From positions 46,659 to 110,658 of the forward strand of contig NZ_JAPDPI010000016.1 of NCBI RefSeq assembly GCF_026013615.1: a stretch of 64,000 nt of DNA, read 5' to 3'. Below are positions 31,011-31,290 of the stretch, piece after piece (positions within the stretch are counted from its first letter, which is position 1; each line of letters starts with the position of its first letter). Position numbers and translations under genes: made by a program. Below the pieces are notes generated by a model. The model searched no databases, had not been told where the DNA came from, and worked only from the letters and a program-made list of their open reading frames with translations. This DNA is from Plebeiibacterium marinum. GTDB lineage: Bacteria; Bacteroidota; Bacteroidia; Bacteroidales; Marinilabiliaceae.

Positions 31011-31073
31011 GCTATTAAAGTTACAACAAAACAGGTGTAAAACAGAATTTATTTTAAAATGTGAGAATATTTT

Positions 31074-31103
31074 TTGGAAATAAAGAACATATCGTTATCT
31101 TTG
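31074..31103 (+). promoter_or_regulatory. Predicted promoter TTG-N19-TATCTTTG
   Basis: Good match to the Bacteroidetes consensus with 19-nt spacing (TTG 31074-31076, TATCTTTG 31096-31103). Confidence 0.6.
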
Positions 31104-31107
31104 TAGC

Positions 31108-31182
31108 AACTCATAGTTTAGGGTTAGGTTTGGTTAAAGATTGGAAAGCAGCTGTATAAACGTTTTATAGCTGCTTTTTTTA
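31108..31182 (+). ncRNA. Candidate small RNA (or mnmH leader), ~70-75 nt
   Basis: Promoter immediately upstream, GU-rich body, intrinsic terminator at the 3' end, no ORF. Confidence 0.5.
31145..31182 (+). terminator. Intrinsic terminator of the candidate small RNA
   Basis: AAAGCAGC-TG-TATAAA/TTTATA-GCTGCTTT plus T-tract. Confidence 0.75.
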
Positions 31183-31290
31183 TGCAAACAGGTGAACGTT
31201 TTATGCCTGTTGGCTTTTTGCCACTTCTGTTATACAGAAAAACTATCCCCCTGTGCTATCTGTCTTCTTCTAAAATTATATTTTTGTGTT

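Follow-up and report, generated by a model that had tools for sequence, protein, structure and literature searches.

A predicted small RNA upstream of mnmH-selD in Plebeiibacterium marinum belongs to a dispersed multicopy family and is probably distant kin of FopS

FopS is a paralogous small RNA (sRNA) family of Bacteroides thetaiotaomicron with 12 to 15 members per genome, each about 65 to 70 nt long. Its members lie at scattered loci and have a sigma-ABfr promoter, an unstructured 5′ seed with the R1′ consensus GTGTTTTTCATAGTATTAGATTTAAGGTTAACAAA and a short terminator hairpin (PMC11697453). The family has been reported to be conserved in Bacteroidaceae and to act together with RbpB, an RRM-1 protein; it pairs with the start regions of SusC-type mRNAs, acts in sugar-uptake control and is induced by bile salts (PMC11697453). 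GibS, a 145-nt sRNA of B. thetaiotaomicron, is transcribed from a PM2 promoter and carries the seed R1 together with a second seed, R2, while the DonS-type sRNAs of Bacteroides fragilis are cis-antisense to susC (PMC7366714).

Here, we analyzed 64,000 nt of the Plebeiibacterium marinum genome, referred to as the window, in which a candidate sRNA precedes mnmH by about 110 nt, both being encoded on the same strand. The features assigned to this region are as follows, class A denoting the subfamily of the window's RNA (see below).

31074 to 31076, + strand: -33 element TTG of a sigma-ABfr-type (Bacteroidota) promoter, from the sequence and class-A promoter statistics
31096 to 31103, + strand: -7 element TATCTTTG, from the sequence and the box-to-core spacing in class A
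31108 to 31112, + strand: predicted transcription start, placed by its distance to the -7 box
31110 to 31137, + strand: invariant family core CTCATAGTTTAGGGTTAGGTTTGGTTAA, 28 nt, presumed single-stranded seed, with a CAU complementary to the start codon AUG
31138 to 31142, + strand: spacer AGATT between core and terminator, from the sequence and the fold
31143 to 31179, + strand: intrinsic terminator hairpin of 14 bp, from the inverted repeat, the fold and covariation in 9/9 pairs (33 relatives)
31171 to 31181, + strand: 3′ arm and U-tract, with the predicted 3′ end at about 31180 to 31182, from the sequence and the fold
31279 to 31286, + strand: -7-like box TATTTTTG directly upstream of mnmH and outside the sRNA, found at the same place in 5/5 mnmH orthologs

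The initial annotation had read the TTG and TATCTTTG as a Bacteroidetes -33/-7 promoter followed by a GU-rich stretch free of ORFs and a Rho-independent terminator with a T-tract, and all three assignments were borne out. The gap between TTG and TATCTTTG is exactly 19 nt, and the full two-box sigma-ABfr promoter was found within 60 nt upstream of 14 of 24 class-A copies, compared with 0.5 in shuffled sequences. The sRNA promoter is the sole perfect TTG-N19-TATCTTTG of the window; allowing one mismatch, the pattern was seen 4 times where 3.5 were expected, and because it is thus no commoner than chance, the promoter taken alone is no proof. The GU-rich stretch lies between the promoter and the hairpin AAAGCAGCTGTATAAACGTTTTATAGCTGCTTT, which is followed by a T-run and forms an inverted repeat (31145 to 31159 and 31163 to 31177). 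The RNA from 31108 to 31182 folds at -20.2 kcal/mol (z -2.8 to -3.3), with a predicted 14-bp stem (31143 to 31156 and 31166 to 31179) followed by U and a 5′ half that is otherwise mostly open. A terminator scan did not include the hairpin at 31143 to 31179 among its listed terminators. We found no noteworthy ORF inside the predicted transcript; a 32-codon GTG ORF at 31061 to 31159 begins upstream of the predicted start.

Searching with positions 31060 to 31190 revealed further copies in the same genome (C113, C102, C22 and C88; 87 to 96% identity in the best-matching parts) and copies in every genome of the genus. Exact matches to 20 nt of the core numbered five in the P. marinum genome and one to seven in each of eight further genomes from the genus. 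The FopS trait of several near-identical paralogs per genome is present in the window's family. When 20 nt of the core were compared with 84,980 species genomes, 57 stretches were recovered. These belonged to Marinilabiliaceae (Labilibacter, Saccharicrinis, Plebeiobacterium, Carboxylicivirga, Marinilabilia, Alkaliflexus, Thermophagus and Anaerophaga) or to MAGs carrying the promoter-core-terminator unit, with a single exception in Shewanella, where the match lacks this unit and resembles a chance hit.

Across Marinilabiliaceae, CTCATAGTTTAGGGTTAGGTTTGGTTAA is near-invariant, while the terminators vary. Both sides had changed in 9/9 stem pairs among 33 relatives, with 46 double-changed cells compared with 13 in shuffles; slid registers scored far below, a comparison that is somewhat favourable because the tested pairs came from the RNAalifold consensus of the same sequence-based (MAFFT) alignment. 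Terminators that diverge with compensatory changes around a fixed core are characteristic of selection acting on an RNA. According to the initial annotation, the candidate would be refuted if relatives did not conserve its promoter, body and terminator; they proved to be conserved, at other loci. The element is almost certainly a functional RNA unit. It is very probably a real free-standing sRNA, with predicted start and end, that belongs to a dispersed multicopy family and is distant kin of FopS.

With FopS it shares multiple dispersed copies, a sigma-ABfr promoter, a 5′ seed that is presumably single-stranded, an intrinsic terminator and a comparable length, predicted here from the sequence as about 70 to 75 nt. 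The two seeds have CATAG...TTAG...GGTTAA in common and nothing more of GTGTTTTTCATAGTATTAGATTTAAGGTTAACAAA: the seed is CTCATAGTTTAGGGTTAGGTTTGGTTAA here but TTTTTCATAGTATTAGATTTAAGGTTAAC in FopS, and the window copy lacks the leading U-run. GibS has the R1 seed of FopS and, like the subfamily that we call class B (below), is a longer RNA, but it differs in its PM2 promoter and second seed R2, whereas in class B a small hairpin precedes the core within the RNA, and the locus follows a DUF3078 gene. DonS-type RNAs are likewise small RNAs of Bacteroidales; unlike them, the window's RNA is antisense to no annotated gene.

We compared three covariance/profile models, built from the window's family (R1), from other Bacteroidales and class-C copies with no core-family or FopS sequence included (R2), and from FopS only, a very uniform set (R3). 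Model R1 found 12 of 16 tested FopS loci (E 3e-4 to 0.28). Model R2 recovered 13 of the same 16 loci, and its sole match in the 64-kb window was the sRNA site (E 3e-4). Model R3 gave no match in the window and found none of the copies in the P. marinum genome. Of 295 Bacteroidales genomes, R1 matched 131 with an E value of 0.1 or less, and many of its better matches outside Marinilabiliaceae were UUUUUCAUAGUUAAGGUUUAGGUUAAA units, several of them by miaB; outside Bacteroidales, R2 matches were weak. On this basis we define an order-wide sRNA class, UUUUUCAUAG..UUAGG..GGUUAA plus a terminator, which includes both FopS and the window's RNA. Rfam returned nothing credible for the window element at gathering or relaxed thresholds. 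A linkage of the order-level copies to DUF3078 was considered and not found, many adjoining miaB instead; a FopS-like UUUUUCAUAGUUAAGGUUUAGGUUAAA sRNA divergent to miaB was seen in several Bacteroidales genomes (L279, L283, L295 to L298 and L301).

Judged from sequence, FopS and the window's family are likely branches of one superfamily with common descent, although the sequences are so short that this falls short of proof. The window's family is a separate subfamily beside FopS, since the FopS-only model misses the window's RNA, the genus lacks an RRM protein of the RbpB type and no preference for SusC-type targets is prominent here. Should the window's RNA represent a sister subfamily, the class would be both older and broader than has been described.

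Within Marinilabiliaceae, we distinguished three subfamilies. Class A, that of the window, is short and dispersed and has its own sigma-ABfr promoter directly before AACTCATAG; where a -7 box is present, its end almost always lies 6 to 7 nt before the core. The window's genus supplied 23 of the 24 distinct upstream regions of class A; the remaining one, L028, is an atypical copy. In class B, TTTTC precedes the core, which lies inside a longer RNA. Counting only copies with a readable same-strand upstream ORF of more than 350 aa, this ORF encoded a homologue of the DUF3078 protein of P. marinum, used as the reference, in 33/33 cases (E at most 3e-73). As class B always lies downstream of the DUF3078 gene, it is a syntenic copy across the family, and it is probably the ancestral one. 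Class-B loci after the DUF3078 outer-membrane-protein gene include L147, L031, L032, L038 and L043; in some genera, class B is possibly derived from a 3′ UTR. Class-B copies of the window's genus carry a TAnnTTTG box some 65 nt further upstream, and a small hairpin lies between. Class C, TTTTTTTCATAGATTAGGGTTTAGGTTAAA, is FopS-like with a U-run and is the form closest to FopS; the P. marinum genome has at least one copy (C98:93752), and G001 has about ten.

Several class-B and class-C copies elsewhere have promoters of the sigma-54 type. The sigma-54 form YGGCAY-N5-TTG was found within 60 nt upstream of 7 of 42 class-B copies (0.02 in shuffles) and of 5 of 29 class-C copies, a set that includes order-level copies (0.00 in shuffles), with the boxes 19 to 34 nt before the core. 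RpoN is encoded in 52/52 good genomes of Marinilabiliaceae, and we found no report of sigma-54-driven FopS-like RNAs in the literature searched. Equating these boxes with the GibS promoter was rejected, PM2 being near-palindromic with boxes at -10/-30. TTGGCAY-N5-TTG boxes at a nearly fixed distance ahead of FopS-like sRNA cores were seen in L012, L015, L017, L024 to L026, L389, L391 and L393 and, outside Marinilabiliaceae, in L284 and L292.

The RRM domain (PF00076, RRM_1) was absent from 9/9 genomes of the window's genus (G000 to G008). Of 21 genera of Marinilabiliaceae, 17 have it, and so do 14/14 genomes sampled from genus g12, judged from shared contigs to be Carboxylicivirga and its close relatives; one or two such proteins are usual in most genera of the family. 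Because this amounts to one evolutionary loss, the coincidence of RRM absence with the spread of class A is suggestive only.

The window's RNA is very probably a free-standing trans-acting sRNA of about 70 to 75 nt, predicted to start at about 31108 to 31112 and to end at about 31180. By analogy with FopS and GibS, its unpaired 5′ core may pair with the translation-initiation regions of several mRNAs. The CAU would lie against AUG, followed by the GU-rich stretch, and translation would be blocked; the many copies could provide dose or separate control, and the RNA would act without an RbpB-type RRM protein, unlike FopS. Kinship makes start-region pairing the best guess, and we consider its chances to be evenly balanced. 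Target tests covered about 1.26 Mb of the P. marinum genome, and no target was prominent in them. The complement of the 16-nt seed (at most 3 mismatches) occurred at 67 sites, the copies themselves included, compared with 165 for the reversed control, and since it is no commoner than that control, long complementary targets were rejected. Apparent targets of the form AACTTAACTCTAATCTATGA were also rejected, as these are reverse complements of further paralogous sRNAs. Duplex energies of the seed at gene starts exceeded those of shuffled seeds, but the excess was gone when the shuffles kept CAU. The excess, SusC starts included, is explained by the anti-AUG CAU and is not claimed here. Fifty SusC starts of the genome showed no strong site and no special complementarity, and the GU-rich core alone showed no complementarity excess at gene starts.

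The last of these results would also fit a core that is bound by a protein, the RNA serving as a sponge or decoy and the invariance reflecting protein binding rather than mRNA pairing. The 28-nt core is conserved beyond the needs of pairing alone, and RbpB of Bacteroides binds FopS at the region corresponding to the window's core (PMC11697453). We regard this reading as unlikely, though worth keeping in view: the obvious protein, an RRM protein, is absent from a genus in which the core is still invariant, and sponges normally carry repeated sites, whereas each RNA here has one.

A mobile non-autonomous repeat, spreading as a promoter-terminator cassette and having little role in regulation, is an improbable alternative. 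Such a repeat would account for the multiple dispersed copies, their variable number, the related copy in a viral contig (L088) and an HTH-mnmH gap that is about 116 nt longer here than in G008, which lacks the element. Against it, no terminal inverted repeats surround the element, the terminators diverge in a compensatory manner around a fixed core and class B keeps its synteny throughout the family.

The initial annotation had left the choice between a stand-alone sRNA and a terminated leader of the selenium genes; dispersed paralogs and covariation uphold an sRNA of about 70 to 75 nt, and the leader did not stand. A terminated 5′ leader of mnmH-selD, whether riboswitch or attenuator, is suggested by the position of the RNA on the same strand and by the terminator at its end, but is very improbable. 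Five full-length orthologs of mnmH were compared within the genus. Only that of the window has the RNA upstream; it is absent in the four relatives, including G008 (L335), which keeps the HTH-mnmH pair without the core. The TATTTTTG box precedes the start codon in all five orthologs, indicating that mnmH has its own promoter. Furthermore, many loci that carry the promoter-core-terminator unit have no mnmH, the other copies adjoining unrelated genes that differ from site to site, and no Rfam leader reached the gathering score. The initial annotation had suggested checking whether the element tracks with mnmH/selD or appears elsewhere; such tracking was not seen, and the element appears unconnected to the adjoining selenium genes. 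Finally, the chance occurrence of a promoter and a hairpin in AT-rich intergenic sequence can be dismissed: single promoter-like sites of the TTG-N19-TATCTTTG type are common, but conservation, covariation and paralogs refute this reading by comparison, and the element stands above chance because of its promoter spacing, its covariation and the conservation of the whole unit at unrelated places.

Returning to the trans-acting sRNA, we tentatively propose a history that may well prove wrong. An ancient Bacteroidales-wide anti-start-codon sRNA class, with FopS as one branch, would have been represented in ancestral Marinilabiliaceae by a single copy next to a gene for a DUF3078 outer-membrane protein. 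The window's genus would have lost the RRM partner and repackaged the RNA as short dispersed copies with promoters of their own, and sigma-54 promoters would serve in other genera. If true, this would be a natural experiment in an sRNA regulon surviving the loss of its RNA-binding protein, and the genus offers a clean test of that protein's contribution. A sister subfamily would mean a FopS-like class absent from Rfam that is able to live without an RRM protein. The invariant core and freely varying terminators make the functional parts easy to separate.

Exact FopS cores were found in 25 viral contigs (L089 to L113), one of which (L091) is identical to the published 35 nt at every position; in L090 and L108 the core lies just after a tRNA-like sequence. 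Viral contig L088, which contains a variant core, matches a stretch of Labilibacter sediminis (L072). Copies were also clustered: three within about 0.4 kb in G016 (L063/L012), two within 0.2 kb in G003 (L005) and three about 2 to 3 kb apart in G001 (L379). In G007, near-identical class-A copies lie about 3 kb apart and at several contig ends (L159 on G007:C310 and the ends of other contigs), an arrangement that suggests a larger repeated module. The class-A copy on C102 lies near a gene for a sigma-54-dependent response regulator (PF00158, E 1e-62; L145:6720-8006).
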